Below, one piece after another: positions 20,288 through 30,833 of a stretch of DNA of 64,000 nucleotides (its first letter is position 1; each line of letters starts with the position of its first letter). The notes beneath the pieces are model-generated. The model was not told where the DNA came from and ran no database searches. It worked only from the letters and a program-made list of their open reading frames with translations. Source of the stretch: Phreatobacter sp. (GTDB lineage Bacteria > Pseudomonadota > Alphaproteobacteria > Rhizobiales > Phreatobacteraceae); the NCBI RefSeq assembly GCF_027532945.1, contig NZ_JAPZTZ010000029.1, forward strand, positions 1 to 64,000. Reading direction: 5' to 3'. The translations under genes were made by a program, and so were the position numbers.

Positions 20288-22582
20288 ATGTCCCAGTCCG
20301 CCCAGCCCGCGACGCGCCCCGACAATGGCGGTCAGGACCTCTCCCGGCGCTTCGCCGGCCTGCTGGTGCTGTGCGGGTTGCCGCTCCTTCTCCTTGTCGC
20401 CGGAGTCGCCTGGTCGACCTATGGCCGGGCCGAGCTCACCGCCCAAGCACGCGAACATGTGGTCGAGCATCTCCTGCTGTTCGTCGGGGTGGTGACGACC
20501 TTCGTCATCCTCGCCCTGCTGGTCTGGCGACAATTCGTCGAGCCGGCGGTGACGCTCGCCCGTGCGGTCGCCGAGGCGGGGCAGGGAGGCGCTGTCGTTC
20601 TGCCCGAGGTGCCCGCCCCCTGGCTCGGCCTGAGGCGGCAGCTCGAACTGTCCATTGCCGAGCAGCAGGCGAAGATCCATCAGCTGCGCGCCATGATCGA
20701 CGGCATCCCGCTCAGAACCGTCTATGTCGATCCGGACCTGATCTACCGCGACGCCAACCGGGAATTCCTCGAATTCGTCGGCAAGCCGCGGGAGGGGGTG
20801 GTGGGCCACAGCGTCGCCGAGATCCTCGGCTCCAAGGTGGTCGAGCAGTACCAGATCCTCGGTGAGCGCGTCCGGCGCGGCGAGACCATGCGCTGGGAAG
20901 GCTGGATCCCCTTCGTCACCCGCGGCCAGCGCTACCTGCAGGTCTCGCTCATGCCCTATGCGGCGGTGGGCGACACCCGCATCGGCTATCTCACCTTCAC
21001 CCGCGACCTCACCGAGCTGAAGCTCGGCGAGCAGGAGTTGGCGCGGAACATGGAGGCGCTTGCCCGCAGCGAATCCATGAACAAGGCGGTGGTCATTTCC
21101 GCGCTCGACGCCATCATCGTGGCCGACGAGAACTGGCAGGTGGTCGAGTTCAACCCGGCTGCCGAGGCGCTGTTCGGCTATTCCCGCGATGAGGCGCTCG
21201 GCTCCTATTCCTTTGACCTCGTCGTGCCCGACACCCTGCGGTCGGTGCATATCGAGACAATGGAGCGCTACAAGGCGAAGAGCGACGCGGGGAGCCTTGC
21301 CCGCCGCTTCGAGACCGTGTCCAAGCGCCGCGACGGCAGCACCTTCCCGGTCGAATATTCCGTCAACACGGTCAGGACGGGTGCCCACCGCCTGTTCATG
21401 GCCCATGTGCGCGACCTTACCGAGGCCAAGCGGATGGAGGCCGAGGCGCAGGCGAGCCGCGAGCGCCTCCATCAGGTCGAGAAACTCTCGGCCATGGGAT
21501 CGCTGCTCGCCGGAGTCGCCCACGAGCTCAACAATCCGCTCGCCATCGTCATCGCCCAGTCCTCGCTGCTGGTGGAGAAGGCGACCGCCGATGACGTGAA
21601 GCGCCGCGGCGAGCGCATCCATGCCGCGGCCGAGCGCTGCGGCCGCATCGTCAAGAGCTTCCTGGCCATGGCACGGCAGAAGCCGCCGCAGCGTGAGCCG
21701 GTCGCCATCAGCGAGGTGGTGACGGCAGCGCTGGAGATGGTGAGCTACGGGGTCCGCAGCTCGGGAATCGAGGTCGAGACCACGCTGGAGCCGGACCTTC
21801 CCGTGATCACCGGTGACCGCGATCTGCTCACGCAGGTCATCGCCAACCTGCTCATCAACGCCCAGCAGGCGCTGATGGACCGCCCCTCTCCGCGGCGGGT
21901 GGCCATTGGCGCGCGGCGGGACGGTGAGGCCATCGCCATCCGCGTGACGGATAATGGCCCGGGCATCCCCGAGGAGATCATGCGGCGGGTCTTCGAGCCC
22001 TATTTTACCACCAAGCCGGCGGGTGTCGGCACGGGCATCGGCCTGTCCATCTGCCGCAATGTGGTGGAGGCCCATGGCGGCAGCGTCAGCCTGTCGAACC
22101 GGCCGGAGGGCGGTGCGCAATTCGATATCCGCCTGCCGGTTGCGACCAGCGAGGCGCAGGCGGTTACGCCACGGACCCCGGCGGGAACCGCCGGCGGCCT
22201 TGCGGTGCTCATCGTCGATGACGAGGCGGATGTGGCGCGCTCGCTTGCCGAGATCGTCGAGGGGCTTGGCCACCATGCGACGACCATGGAGCGCCCCGCC
22301 GATGCCCTCGAGAGCATCGGTCGGGACCGAATCGACATCGTCTTCGCTGACCTGAGGATGCCCGGGCTCGACGGCGTCGATTTCCGCGACCGCATCCACC
22401 TGCGGGATCCCGAGCTGGCGCGCCGCACGATCATCGTGACGGGCGACACGGTGGCGGGGCCCGACCGTCTGGCACGGGCGGAGGGCGCGGAGGTCGTGGT
22501 GCTGGAGAAGCCCTTCACTTTCGACGACGTCCGCACCGTGCTCGCCCAGGTGATGGCGAGCGCCGTGCCGACCCGTCACTGA
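20288..22582 (+). CDS. Membrane PAS hybrid histidine kinase with C-terminal receiver
   Basis: 764 residues. Two membrane segments (about 22-45 and 59-81), PAS domain 1 (about 135-250), PAS domain 2 (about 268-385, AIIVADENWQVVEFNPAAEA), HisKA with His412 in AGVAHELNNPLA, HATPase with DNGPGIPEE and GVGTGIGLSICRNVVEAHGG, then a receiver with Asp688 in IVFADLRMPGLDG. The catalytic core is closely related to that of the kinase at 24809. Ends 2 bases from the convergent globin gene. Signal unknown; PAS domains and the nearby globin hint at redox or oxygen (inference). Confidence 0.93.
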   Translation: MSQSAQPATRPDNGGQDLSRRFAGLLVLCGLPLLLLVAGVAWSTYGRAELTAQAREHVVEHLLLFVGVVTTFVILALLVWRQFVEPAVTLARAVAEAGQGGAVVLPEVPAPWLGLRRQLELSIAEQQAKIHQLRAMIDGIPLRTVYVDPDLIYRDANREFLEFVGKPREGVVGHSVAEILGSKVVEQYQILGERVRRGETMRWEGWIPFVTRGQRYLQVSLMPYAAVGDTRIGYLTFTRDLTELKLGEQELARNMEALARSESMNKAVVISALDAIIVADENWQVVEFNPAAEALFGYSRDEALGSYSFDLVVPDTLRSVHIETMERYKAKSDAGSLARRFETVSKRRDGSTFPVEYSVNTVRTGAHRLFMAHVRDLTEAKRMEAEAQASRERLHQVEKLSAMGSLLAGVAHELNNPLAIVIAQSSLLVEKATADDVKRRGERIHAAAERCGRIVKSFLAMARQKPPQREPVAISEVVTAALEMVSYGVRSSGIEVETTLEPDLPVITGDRDLLTQVIANLLINAQQALMDRPSPRRVAIGARRDGEAIAIRVTDNGPGIPEEIMRRVFEPYFTTKPAGVGTGIGLSICRNVVEAHGGSVSLSNRPEGGAQFDIRLPVATSEAQAVTPRTPAGTAGGLAVLIVDDEADVARSLAEIVEGLGHHATTMERPADALESIGRDRIDIVFADLRMPGLDGVDFRDRIHLRDPELARRTIIVTGDTVAGPDRLARAEGAEVVVLEKPFTFDDVRTVLAQVMASAVPTRH

Positions 22583-24081: not shown

Positions 24082-24804
24082 ATGAAAGCCACGGTGGCCA
24101 TCGTCGACGACGAGGAGCACCTGCGGGAGGCCGTGGGTGAATATCTGGAGCTTCAGGGCTTCGAGGTGTTCACCTACCGCAACGCGCAGGCCTTCCGGGA
24201 AGAGAGCGTCGGCAAGGTGATCGACGTTGCCATTCTCGATGTCGCCATGCCCGGCGAGGACGGCCTGTCGCTCGCCCGCTTCATCCGCAAGACCGGCGGG
24301 ACGGGCATCATCATGGCCACCGCCGCCGGCCGGCCGATCGACCGGATCGTCGGGCTGGAGATCGGCGCCGACGATTATCTGGTGAAGCCCTACGAGCTGC
24401 GCGAGCTACTCGCCCGCATCAAGAGCGTGTTGCGGCGGGTGAAGGCAGCACCAGCCACCGCCGCGACCCCCGCGCCGGCTGCCCCGGAGGGGCGCAGCCT
24501 GCGGTTCGGGGCGCTGACCCTCGACCTCGACGCGCGCCGGTTGACCGATGCCGGCCGCGGCCCGATCGAACTGACGGCCATGGAATTCGACCTTCTCCAG
24601 GCCCTGGCGACGCGGCCGAACCGCGTGCTCTCCCGCGGCCAGCTGCAGGAATTCGCCCATGGCCGCACGGTCGATGAGAGCGACCGCTCCATCGACATCC
24701 GCGTGACCCGCCTGCGCAAGAAGATCGAGCCTGATCCGGAGCACCCGCGCTTCATCAAGACCGTGCGGGGCGAAGGCTATGTCTTCGTGCCCAGCGGGGC
24801 CTGA
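24082..24804 (+). CDS. OmpR-family response regulator
   Basis: 240 residues. Receiver with DDEE at 10-13 and Asp53 in VAILDVAMPGEDG; the usual switch Thr region reads IIMATAAGRP and the Lys is in DDYLVKPYELREL. A Pro/Ala-rich linker (residues ~117-130) joins a winged helix with LTAMEFDLLQALATRPNRVL and RSIDIRVTRLRKKIE. Four bases separate its stop from the next ATG, so it is co-transcribed with the hybrid kinase at 24809, the likely cognate sensor. Confidence 0.93.
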   Translation: MKATVAIVDDEEHLREAVGEYLELQGFEVFTYRNAQAFREESVGKVIDVAILDVAMPGEDGLSLARFIRKTGGTGIIMATAAGRPIDRIVGLEIGADDYLVKPYELRELLARIKSVLRRVKAAPATAATPAPAAPEGRSLRFGALTLDLDARRLTDAGRGPIELTAMEFDLLQALATRPNRVLSRGQLQEFAHGRTVDESDRSIDIRVTRLRKKIEPDPEHPRFIKTVRGEGYVFVPSGA

Positions 24805-24808
24805 GGGC

Positions 24809-26785
24809 ATGGCCGAACCGCCCAGCCATTCTTCCCCATCCGGTTTCCCCGGCATGGCGGCGCTCCTCACGGACGCCGCCGTCGCACATGATGGGCGACT
24901 CGACGGATCCATCCTCGGTCGGCTTTTTGACGCCATGCCGATCCGCGTCACCGCCGCCGATGCGGAGGGCCGGTTCGTCTATGCGAACCGCGTGGCGCTC
25001 GACATGTTCGGTCTCCGGCTCGAGGATATTGTCGGCCGGACGGTCCGCGACATCCTCGGTGAGGAGATGCATCGCCGGACGGCGCCGCTCCTGCCCGAAC
25101 TCGGCAAGGGCTCGCCGATCCAATGGACGGATTGGGTGACCTACGGCACTGGCGCGCGCCGCTATGTCGAGCAGCTCTACTCACCCTGTTTCGGTGCCGA
25201 CGGCGTCCTTCTCGGTTTCATCGCCTTCATCCGCGACCTCACCGACCTGCGCGAGCGCGAGGAGGCGCTGGAGGCCCGGCTCGCAGCGCTGAACGTCGCC
25301 GAGACCATCAACACCGCCATCATCAAGACCTCCATCGACCCGATCATGGTGGTGGACGAGGCCGGCATGCTGGTGGATCTCAACCCCGCGGCCATGGCGA
25401 CGTTCGGCTATTCGCGGGCGCAGGCCGTGGGCAAGCCCATCGGCGAACTCATCGTCCCGCCGGCGCTCAGGGCCGCCCATGCCAGCGGCATGGCGCGCTA
25501 TACGGCGACCGGCATCAGTCGCGTCCTCGATCGTCGCCTCACCATGGAGGCGCAGCGCGCGGACGGCTCGCTCATCCCGATCGAGTTGACCATTTCCGAG
25601 ATCAAGCTGCCGGAGCGGCGTGTTTTCACCGCCCATCTGCGCGACCTCACCGAGGCGCGCGAGGCGGAGCGGCAGCTCGAACGCCAGCGCGAGCGCCTGC
25701 ACCAGGCGGAGAAGCTCTCCGCCATGGGTTCGCTCCTCGCCGGCGTCGCCCATGAGCTGAACAACCCGCTCGCCATCCTCGTCGCCCAGTCGACCCTGCT
25801 GATGGAGACGGCGAACGATCCCGGCCAGAAACGCCGCGCGGAACGCATTCACGCCGCCGCCGACCGGGCGGGCCGAATCGTCAAGAGCTTCCTCGCCATG
25901 GCGCGGCAGCGTCCAGAGACGCGCGAGCGGGCGCAGATCAACGACCTTGTGCGCTCCACCGGTGAAATGCTCGCCTATGGCCTGCGCAGTCATGACGTGA
26001 CGCTGGAGCTCGACCTCGACCCCGACCTGCCGGATATCACCGCCGACCGCGACTTCATCGGCCAGGTCATCGCCAATCTCATCGTCAACGCCCAGCACGC
26101 GCTGATCGACCTCGACCCGCCGCGCCGTGTCTCGATCCTCACCCGCCGCAAGAACGGCCATGTGCGTCTGGTGGTCAGCGATAACGGCCCTGGCGTGCCC
26201 GATGCGATCGCGGGGCGCATCTTCGAGCCCTATTTCACCACCAAGCCGGCCGGTGTCGGCACCGGGATCGGCCTGTCCATCTGCAAGTCCATCGTCGAAT
26301 CGCATGGCGGCATGATCACGCTCGGCCGCAGCGAGGCGGGCGGCGCCGCCTTCACGGTGCTGCTGCCGATCTCGGAGGGCGCCGCGACCACGGCCGAGGA
26401 GGCAGCGCCGGAAGAGGCGACCGGGCTCGCCGTCCTCGTGGTCGACGACGAGGCTGATGTCCGCGCTGGCCTCGCCGAGATGCTGGAGCTGTTCGGCCAT
26501 CGCGTGCTGCCGGCCCAGACCGCGCGCGAGGCGCTGGAGGAGGGCGCGGTCATGGAGGCCGACCTGGTCTTCGTCGATCTGCGGATGCCGGGCATCGACG
26601 GACTTCGCTTCCGCGACCGGGCCATCGCCCTCAATCCGCGGCTCGCCGACCGCATCGTCATCATGACCGGTGACGCGGTGGAGGGGCCCGGCGCCATCCA
26701 GCGTCACGCGGGCGAGGCAGTGGTGACCATGGAGAAGCCGTTCACGCTCGCCGACGTGCGGCGAATCCTCGCCGCCTTCGCCTAG
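24809..26785 (+). CDS. Soluble PAS hybrid histidine kinase with C-terminal receiver
   Basis: 658 residues from ATG 24809. No membrane segment. PAS domain 1 (about 35-150), PAS domain 2 (about 170-285, PIMVVDEAGMLVDLNPAAMA), HisKA with His315 in AGVAHELNNPLA, HATPase with SDNGPGVPDA and GVGTGIGLSICKSIVESHGG, receiver with Asp590 in LVFVDLRMPGIDG. Very similar to the membrane kinase at 20288 from the second PAS onward, suggesting duplication. Follows its response regulator by 4 bases. The last codons carry the first GANTC site of the downstream array. Confidence 0.93.
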   Translation: MAEPPSHSSPSGFPGMAALLTDAAVAHDGRLDGSILGRLFDAMPIRVTAADAEGRFVYANRVALDMFGLRLEDIVGRTVRDILGEEMHRRTAPLLPELGKGSPIQWTDWVTYGTGARRYVEQLYSPCFGADGVLLGFIAFIRDLTDLREREEALEARLAALNVAETINTAIIKTSIDPIMVVDEAGMLVDLNPAAMATFGYSRAQAVGKPIGELIVPPALRAAHASGMARYTATGISRVLDRRLTMEAQRADGSLIPIELTISEIKLPERRVFTAHLRDLTEAREAERQLERQRERLHQAEKLSAMGSLLAGVAHELNNPLAILVAQSTLLMETANDPGQKRRAERIHAAADRAGRIVKSFLAMARQRPETRERAQINDLVRSTGEMLAYGLRSHDVTLELDLDPDLPDITADRDFIGQVIANLIVNAQHALIDLDPPRRVSILTRRKNGHVRLVVSDNGPGVPDAIAGRIFEPYFTTKPAGVGTGIGLSICKSIVESHGGMITLGRSEAGGAAFTVLLPISEGAATTAEEAAPEEATGLAVLVVDDEADVRAGLAEMLELFGHRVLPAQTAREALEEGAVMEADLVFVDLRMPGIDGLRFRDRAIALNPRLADRIVIMTGDAVEGPGAIQRHAGEAVVTMEKPFTLADVRRILAAFA

Positions 26786-27044
26786 AGTCCTGCCGCACCG
26801 CCTGCGAATCCCGGCCCGGGGCTTTCGAGTCTTGATGTCTGCCGTGGGGCAAGAAGAGCCGCTCTCCCGAGTCGTCGTTAAGACATCGTCAACCATGATG
26901 ACTCGCGGCGCGATGAAAAAGACTCACGGCCCCGCCCGATCGACTCGCCTTGTGCCTGGAATGACTCTGGCACACCACATGTCGTCGTGAACGAATCGGG
27001 ATTCGACGCGAGTCAGCGATTCGGACCCGATTCGTTCCAGACTC
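26763..27044. repeat. Helically phased array of 15 GANTC sites
   Basis: GANTC begins at 26763, 26785, 26806, 26827, 26869, 26900, 26921, 26942, 26963, 26993, 27000, 27010, 27018, 27029 and 27040. Spacings are 22, 21, 21, 42, 31, 21, 21, 21, 30, then 7, 10, 8, 11, 11. The first ten sites lie on one helical face within about one base. Bases between sites are not conserved. GANTC is the CcrM adenine-methylation site in alphaproteobacteria. At this base composition roughly one site per 300 bases is expected. Only the first site is inside the kinase gene; the rest fill the gap up to the helicase. Confidence 0.9.
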
Positions 27045-27124
27045 GTTCCCGATGTGAACGAGGCCGTCCGGGTCCATCGAAATGTCACGCCTTTCGCGTG
27101 CCGGCATGATACAGACGGCCCTGA
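26786..27124. other. Gene-free gap carrying the GANTC array
   Basis: 339 bases with no supported gene. Besides the GANTC array it contains a 12-bp inverted repeat (GAACGAATCGGG at 26989-27000, CCCGATTCGTTC at 27026-27037), a shorter dyad CGAATC/GATTCG at 26992-27005, and TGTGCC/GGCACA (26951-26956, 26969-26974) around one array site. The 80 bases after 27044 have no GANTC and should hold the helicase leader. Confidence 0.7.
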
Positions 27125-30430
<3,306 letters not shown>

Positions 30431-30449: not shown

Positions 30450-30833
30450 TTGAGCGAGACGGACCGGCTGAGGATCGACAAGTGGCTGTGGTTCGCCCGG
30501 GTCGTGAAGACCCGCAGCGCCGCGGCCGCCTTGTGCGAGGACGGCTCGGTGAGGCTCAACGGCGCGCGCGTCGACCAGGCGCACAAGCCGGTGAGGGTCG
30601 GCGATGTGCTCACCGTTGCCCTGCACGGCCGGGTCAAGGTGCTGAAGGTGCTCGACCTCGCCGAGCGCCGCGGGCCCTATAGCGAGGCCCAGCACATCTA
30701 CGAGGACCTCTCGCCCGAGCCGCCGCGCTTCGATCCGCCCTCGCCGGTCGCCGGGCGCGAGCCGGGCAGCGGCCGCCCGACCAAGGCGGAGCGGCGCGAC
30801 CTCGATCGCCTGCGCTGGGGCGACGAGGACTGA
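30450..30833 (+). CDS. S4-domain RNA-binding protein (Hsp15-like)
   Basis: 127 residues from TTG 30450. The S4 domain covers most of it: RIDKWLWFARVVKTRSAAAALC and VRLNGARVDQAHKPVRVGDVL (each split at the loop). The C-terminal part is basic (GSGRPTKAERRDLDRLRWG). Similar to Hsp15, which binds the free 50S subunit carrying a stalled peptidyl-tRNA. Lies 19 bases after the helicase, so the pair may form an RNA/ribosome maintenance operon (inference). Confidence 0.9.
   Translation: MSETDRLRIDKWLWFARVVKTRSAAAALCEDGSVRLNGARVDQAHKPVRVGDVLTVALHGRVKVLKVLDLAERRGPYSEAQHIYEDLSPEPPRFDPPSPVAGREPGSGRPTKAERRDLDRLRWGDED

Follow-up and report, generated by a model that had tools for sequence, protein, structure and literature searches.

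The window analysed here is a stretch of 64,000 nucleotides from Phreatobacter sp. (contig NZ_JAPZTZ010000029.1, positions 1 to 64,000), in which a dense group of GANTC sites separates the gene for a histidine kinase from that for a SUV3-like helicase. The locus is made of two things, a phased array of GANTC sites and a conserved core element, which are out of phase with each other. Its features, in order of position, are:

24779 to 26785, + strand: PAS hybrid histidine kinase, upstream (open reading frame and domain match)
26763 to 26767, no strand: GANTC in phase with the array, in the terminal part of the upstream kinase gene; missing from the aligned position of L003, the closest relative
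26785 to 26967, no strand: the phased array itself, with eight GANTC spaced by multiples of about 10.5 bp, each kept in 6 to 11 of the 11 genus genomes
26878 to 26893, + strand: half-site pair TTAA-N7-TCAAC inside the array, which we take to be CtrA-like (alignment by eye; partly conserved in the genus)
26940 to 26987, + strand: tandem NrdR-like boxes, 32 bp apart (26940 to 26955 weak, 26972 to 26987 better), like the pair of the genome's own ribonucleotide reductase gene (L302); weak score of 17
26987 to 27052, + strand: conserved core element, type A, 66 bp, with GANTC at 26993, 27000, 27010, 27018, 27029 and 27040; present in 87 of the 109 helicase-upstream regions
26989 to 27003, - strand: left arm of the core, GAAC-N7-GATT, which resembles a LexA box in inverted and degenerate form (sequence and core alignment)
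27034 to 27048, + strand: right arm of the core, exact GTTC-N7-GTTC, an alphaproteobacterial LexA-type box (pattern match; class consensus in the available part of PMC3323433)
27079 to 27113, + strand: conserved block directly before the helicase start, a possible promoter with no match to the sigma-70 consensus (alignment)
27125 to 30430, + strand: SUV3-like helicase gene, whose translation ends in a long C-terminal tail of low complexity (open reading frame and domain match)
30450 to 30833, + strand: S4-domain RNA-binding protein, the next gene on the same strand as the helicase (open reading frame and domain match)

The first conserved GANTC (26785) begins on the last base of the kinase stop codon. 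A similar PAS hybrid histidine kinase is encoded at 20288 to 22582, and between it and the one at 24779 to 26785 lie a globin gene and two response regulators whose DNA-binding domain is C-terminal, an arrangement resembling a duplicated signalling cluster. The name MgpS for the helicase was not confirmed by look-up.

All 15 GANTC sites that the first-pass annotation had claimed between 26763 and 27044 were found at exactly the positions it gave. The motif is otherwise rare in the window, where a first-order Markov model predicts about 310 sites and 95 (about 0.42 per 282 bp) were observed; in 60 windows simulated under that model the densest 282-bp stretch held nine sites, as against 15 at the array. 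In the available part of PMC3973325, GANTC is described as under-represented in the genomes of CcrM-bearing orders and over-represented between genes. About 11% of the own genome (470 kb, comprising the contig of the window, nearly all of contig 21 and most of contig 17) had a density of 1.00 GANTC per kb and held no second 282-bp stretch with at least five sites. In 1.2 Mb (about 27%) of the complete sister genome G008, a sample that includes the hemE region, the copy of the array carried 14 GANTC per 282 bp, the runner-up seven and three more stretches five each. No comparable cluster was thus present at unrelated loci in the sampled sequence of either genome. The second densest stretch of the G008 sample (L238:14542, at about 574.5 kb), with its seven sites in 282 bp, lies, as judged by eye, where an ORF for a sensor kinase begins, beside an aminopeptidase-like ORF.

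Ten of the sites had been described as helically phased, and these gave a Fourier power of 8.84 of 10 at 10.5 bp that none of 20,000 random placements equalled, a P value which is post hoc because the reader had chosen those ten; conservation is the better test. For all 15 sites the power at 10.5 bp was only 3.64 (P about 0.013), because the last sites sit out of phase. The array as first delimited was accordingly cut back at both ends: the sites at 26785, 26806, 26827, 26869, 26900, 26921, 26942 and 26963 stand, that at 26763, being inside the kinase gene and missing in the closest relative, is probably incidental, and the dense group from about 26987 belongs to the separate conserved element and is not the tail of the array.

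Within the genus, the set comprised 12 genomes including this one, and the helicase locus was present in 11 of them, the twelfth genome being 85% complete. The array is kept in all 11, in shorter form in some, with 9 to 15 GANTC in the 600 bp upstream of the helicase; the phased part comprises 4 to 11 sites and reaches 61 to 98% of the maximum power. Outside the core, the mean pairwise identity was 0.78 in the GA..TC columns (32 columns) versus 0.45 in the other columns (180 columns), with a Mann-Whitney P of 3e-10 for which columns within one site are not independent. The central base varies across the genus genomes with GANTC retained at 26806, 26827, 26921 and 26942 in the array and at 27000 in the core. 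The earlier statement that the bases between the sites are not conserved therefore applies to the array and fails for the core. Conservation of the GA..TC columns despite changes of the central base argues that selection acts on the methylatable site itself and on how the sites are spaced, rather than on the sequence around them.

The distribution of the core was followed in 109 helicase-upstream regions of up to 700 bp, of which 11 came from the genus, 19 from other members of the order and 79 from named genomes, one more locus being too short. Of these regions 87, nearly all from Hyphomicrobiales, contained the core without gaps, with scores of 17.7 to 91.7 bits from a matrix trained on the same set, against a best score of -11.3 among 545 shuffled regions. 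Across the 44 aligned cores (consensus gtGAAC.aA.c..gA.tc.....gAGTCagCGATTCGg.c.cGaTTcGTTC..gactcGTTCc.) the GATTC at 27018 is invariant, and by BLAST the core is single copy in the own genome. In the other 22 regions, including those of Methylobacterium, Methylorubrum, Aureimonas, Jiella, Fulvimarina and Pseudovibrio, the helicase is kept and the core is missing. Regions with the core held 8.54 GANTC per 600 bp versus 0.77 in those without it, so that the core and GANTC richness go together; the values expected from adjacent downstream DNA were 0.78 and 0.70, respectively, and outside the 66 bp the core regions still had 8.0 GANTC per kb. Across the order this link is nearly all-or-none. Beyond the genus the richness is retained with a different exact layout (for instance gaps of 10, 11, 6 and 5 in Bradyrhizobium), and the distance from the core to the start of the helicase match varies from about 110 to 530 bp.

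Searches with two models extended this picture. The sequence-only model R1, built from the 44 cores, gave matches at E <=0.1 in 33 of the 41 genomes searched; some of these were weak, and that in G010 was away from the helicase. Among 14 genomes picked for a coreless helicase, it found convincing copies elsewhere in G053, matches at E 0.005-0.1 in three and none in ten, and both of two core-bearing control genomes were matched. The second model R2, made from both types of copy described below, matched in 32 of 38 mostly complete genomes at E <=0.01, and at its new loci, taken one per genome, the helicase motif GPTNTGKT lay on the expected side in 26 of 27. In the wider class, R1 matched 18 of 193 genomes, 15 of which are labelled outside the order (e.g. 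G366, G442, G322 and G283), which suggests that the core element may predate the order.

The element directly precedes a helicase-S4-ferredoxin-carD series in a Sinorhizobium meliloti record and likewise in Rhizobium sp. NLR16a, where it and helicase-S4-fdxA-carD are together on a 489-kb plasmid. The nearest recognised upstream ORF, picked by codon signature and assigned to a family in nine of ten cases, changes from locus to locus (DUF3108, carboxylase, SDR, aquaporin and acyl-CoA dehydrogenase) and includes divergent genes; the element therefore belongs to the helicase side. A mobile-element or phage origin was rejected, as no match to phage was obtained for a 501-bp stretch of Rhizobium that holds three copies. 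This stretch matched six records of a plasmid collection, five of 3.5-4.6 Mb and the 489-kb plasmid with the whole operon, and the core of the window had no match in that collection.

A conserved intergenic block upstream of a gene, with inverted-repeat arms in the single sequence, could also be a small RNA gene or a structured leader whose GANTC content would be due to chance. We consider this highly improbable and rejected it, as RNAalifold on 44 sequences gave three pairs, none of them changed on both sides, at an energy near zero, and neither the stretch 26000-28000 of the window nor eight loci gave an Rfam match at the gathering score.

The element is often repeated. A scan of 94 helicase-upstream regions, lengthened to 1500 bp, and of 19 loci retrieved because of their matches and read on both strands, yielded 151 copies, 76 of type A, defined by an exact GTTC-N7-GTTC at the right end, and 75 of type B, which takes in all other copies. 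Any copy was present in 76 of the 94 helicase-upstream regions and two or more tandem copies in 33 of these 76, with 50 of the 55 spacings at 100-300 bp. Apart from these, nine genus genomes have a second locus with one to four type B copies, in tandem in the own genome (two, G000:C17:43357-43691, L163), in G007 (four, L164) and in G008 (three, L165). When 13 loci were viewed by codon signature, five lay between convergent ORFs (L163, L164, L166, L170 and L176) and one more (L173) probably did so by eye, the remaining inspected loci being co-directional or unclear. Four of them (L163, L164, L166 and L170) have on their left an ORF of about 805-830 aa, which in the two scanned cases (L163 and L164) is transketolase-like, and therefore look like one orthologous locus; on the other flank are RNase T2 in L163 and acyl-CoA dehydrogenase in L164. 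Three genus genomes also have a copy ahead of leuA, the gene for 2-isopropylmalate synthase (L177 at G000:C21:227188-227252, L179 and L180). In a Xanthobacter (G053), where the helicase upstream region is without a convincing core, copies were seen at several other loci (L173-L176), one of them with three about 100 bp apart. As promoters, the type B copies are contradicted at the convergent-gene loci.

These copies bear on the suggestion that the array is a chromosome-maintenance or origin-linked site. It could be a nucleoprotein site that stands alone and serves the maintenance of the chromosome or the timing of replication, such as a titration or centromere-like array, whose adjacency to the helicase would be historical. 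Such a site would suit the tandem copies, the arrays between convergent genes in the genus and the single copy between the MCP and RuvX genes of a Xanthobacter. As marker of oriC we used hemE, which we take to be its neighbour, with distances computed from match coordinates and wrapped distances from rounded genome sizes. An origin or origin-proximal site looked promising in the genus, where the locus is 37-52 kb from hemE in the same-contig cases (G007, G009, G003, G008 and G006), and 13 of 36 genomes across the order have it within 150 kb, with a median of 320 kb; over these 36 genomes, however, the distance is as small as 20 kb in G037 and as large as about 3 Mb in G077, and across the order the candidate failed. 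This variable distance and the plasmid of Rhizobium sp. NLR16a that carries core and operon together make a site tied to the origin unlikely, and the helicase adjoins 26 of the 27 new loci. The suggestion is thus weakened, above all in its link to the origin, and is kept alive by the convergent-gene copies, and we hold the stand-alone site as a whole to be unlikely.

The arms of the core point to another regulator. The LexA motif of alphaproteobacteria is GTTC-N7-GTTC (PMC3323433), and that of Caulobacter is likewise (PMC12700426), as given in the available parts of these sources. The exact motif stands at the right end of 76 of the 151 copies, which is the definition of type A. The recA upstream region of the own genome holds GAACGAAAAAAGAAC, and the corresponding regions contain GAAC-N7-GAAC in the own genome and G008 by pattern and GAAC-N7-GTAC in two rhizobia by eye. 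The element could then be mainly a LexA (SOS) operator, the GANTC sites being incidental to repeats of GATTCGTTC-like sequence, which we regard as very unlikely: exact GAAC-N7-GAAC occurs in just 1 of the 75 type B copies, the invariant part of the core is GATTC and not the LexA box, and GANTC is retained in the phased tract beyond the core. As sole explanation LexA was rejected for the poor fit of the left arm and of the type B copies, and because of that degenerate arm and the single exact type B copy the LexA reading is a lead only.

The two 16-bp boxes immediately 5' of the core agree in spacing with those in front of the ribonucleotide reductase gene of this genome, ACACCACATTTAGGGT and CCACTATATCTTGACG at a distance of 31 bp, to which NrdR would presumably bind, and resemble them in sequence at a weak score. 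Beside the 87 cores, NrdR-like pairs scored 18.1 on average versus 14.5 in one shuffle each (own pair 17), and the best pairs upstream of seven reductase genes scored 19-26 over 1500 bp, so that they are not directly comparable with the core-side pairs. A literature search returned no report of NrdR with a helicase among its matches.

The organism encodes a predicted CcrM-type methyltransferase, with PF01555 (N6_N4_Mtase) at E 4e-66 and a RAMA domain; the NCBIfam CcrM model matches along its whole length at 628 bits, under the model cut-off of 830. Of the refuting conditions named in the first-pass annotation (unrelated clusters, loss of the array in relatives, no CcrM), none was borne out within the sequence sampled. 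GcrA (PF07750) was not found in the own draft (35 contigs, 97% complete) and is present in both of two complete sister genomes, where 8 and 7 GANTC lie within 400 bp upstream of the domain match (L296 and L297). The GcrA context YGAKTCG occurs at 5 of the 15 array sites versus 18 of the 80 elsewhere in the window, an enrichment that is not clear, and a scan of the region upstream of the helicase gave no sigma-70 consensus promoter.

That the core and the helicase stay together while the upstream neighbour changes makes a cis-regulatory role for the helicase operon the best fit, and this part of the proposed cell-cycle promoter is supported. We consider it moderately probable that the locus controls the SUV3-like helicase-S4 operon in cis as a compound regulatory region, in which the 66-bp protein-binding core and the helically phased GANTC tract would act together and make expression of the operon dependent on methylation state. 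On the observed footing of the sites with their number, phasing and selection, the tie of core to helicase and the gene for a CcrM-type enzyme, the proposed steps are that CcrM methylates the array sites, that the helicase and S4 genes form one operon, and that its transcription responds to full methylation as opposed to the hemimethylation just after passage of the replication fork. The reader along one face of the helix may be GcrA or a competitor shielding the sites from CcrM. The NrdR-like and LexA-like boxes suggest nucleotide supply and DNA damage as further inputs, which is the weakest step. Counted against operon control are the lack of GcrA in the draft, of clear YGAKTCG enrichment and of a sigma-70 consensus, the variable core-helicase distance and the 22 of 109 coreless helicases. 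It is also weakened because some of the weaker copies sit between convergent genes, a position in which control of a promoter would be meaningless; these copies, not easily promoters, are the main fact that the helicase-operon explanation leaves uncovered. A wider proposal is that a protein may recognise the core, nucleate at it, spread over one helix face of phased methyl-GANTC and tell hemimethylated from fully methylated DNA, with the helicase copy as main switch and the satellites as docking sites, in a so far undescribed system of Hyphomicrobiales. This we offer tentatively, as somewhat unlikely.

The GATC arrays bound by SeqA and the RctB iterons of Vibrio resemble the array in that sites of methylation recur along a single helix face, and they differ in methyltransferase and motif; besides, a tie of the array to the origin is not supported. 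Closer likenesses lie among CcrM/GcrA promoters. In the available part of PMC11514494, six GANTC are reported in 250 bp upstream of gcrA in Agrobacterium tumefaciens, and the GANTC-rich promoters described there hold few sites, three or six. The gcrA and repABC promoters of that bacterium share with our locus several GANTC in a short region upstream of a replication-related gene, and the 7-8 GANTC per 400 bp upstream of gcrA in the sister genomes echo its gcrA promoter (PMC11514494). They differ from the present region, which has 15 sites in 282 bp, a 10.5-bp phase, conserved spacing, an order-wide 66-bp core and a SUV3-like helicase gene. Methyl-dependent sigma-70 promoters with the GcrA context YGAKTCG are described for Caulobacter and Brevundimonas (PMC7987155, available part), and the CGATTCG of the core fits this context; GcrA ChIP peaks of Brucella are 4.4-4.7 times richer in GANTC (PMC6813329, available part). 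Unlike these GcrA sites, as far as the same parts describe them, only 5 of our 15 fit YGAKTCG, and neither GcrA in the draft nor a promoter consensus was found. MucR and CtrA can shield GANTC from methylation and leave promoters hypomethylated (PMC5172544, available part). With its CtrA-like site the array is similar, as a DNA-binding protein over GANTC could keep its sites hypomethylated; no dense phased array is reported in that part of the source.

The first-pass annotation knew of no described element of this form. No description of the array or the core was present among the matches listed in the open literature, outside which most subscription papers lie, nor in the literature on GcrA and LexA motifs within the same bounds, and because of this limited coverage such absence is weak evidence of novelty. 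The statement holds to that extent and has to be qualified for GANTC-rich promoters as a class, which are known (six sites in 250 bp at Agrobacterium gcrA; PMC11514494, available part).

The element looks like an undescribed switch that reads the state of DNA replication. Selection keeps the number, spacing and helical phase of GANTC while the intervening and even the central bases drift. CcrM methylation times gene expression in alphaproteobacteria, and the question of whether the cell counts or aligns methyl marks becomes directly testable in a laboratory rhizobium. The order-wide core beside an RNA-helicase gene points to an unrecognised regulatory input common to many nitrogen-fixing and environmental bacteria.
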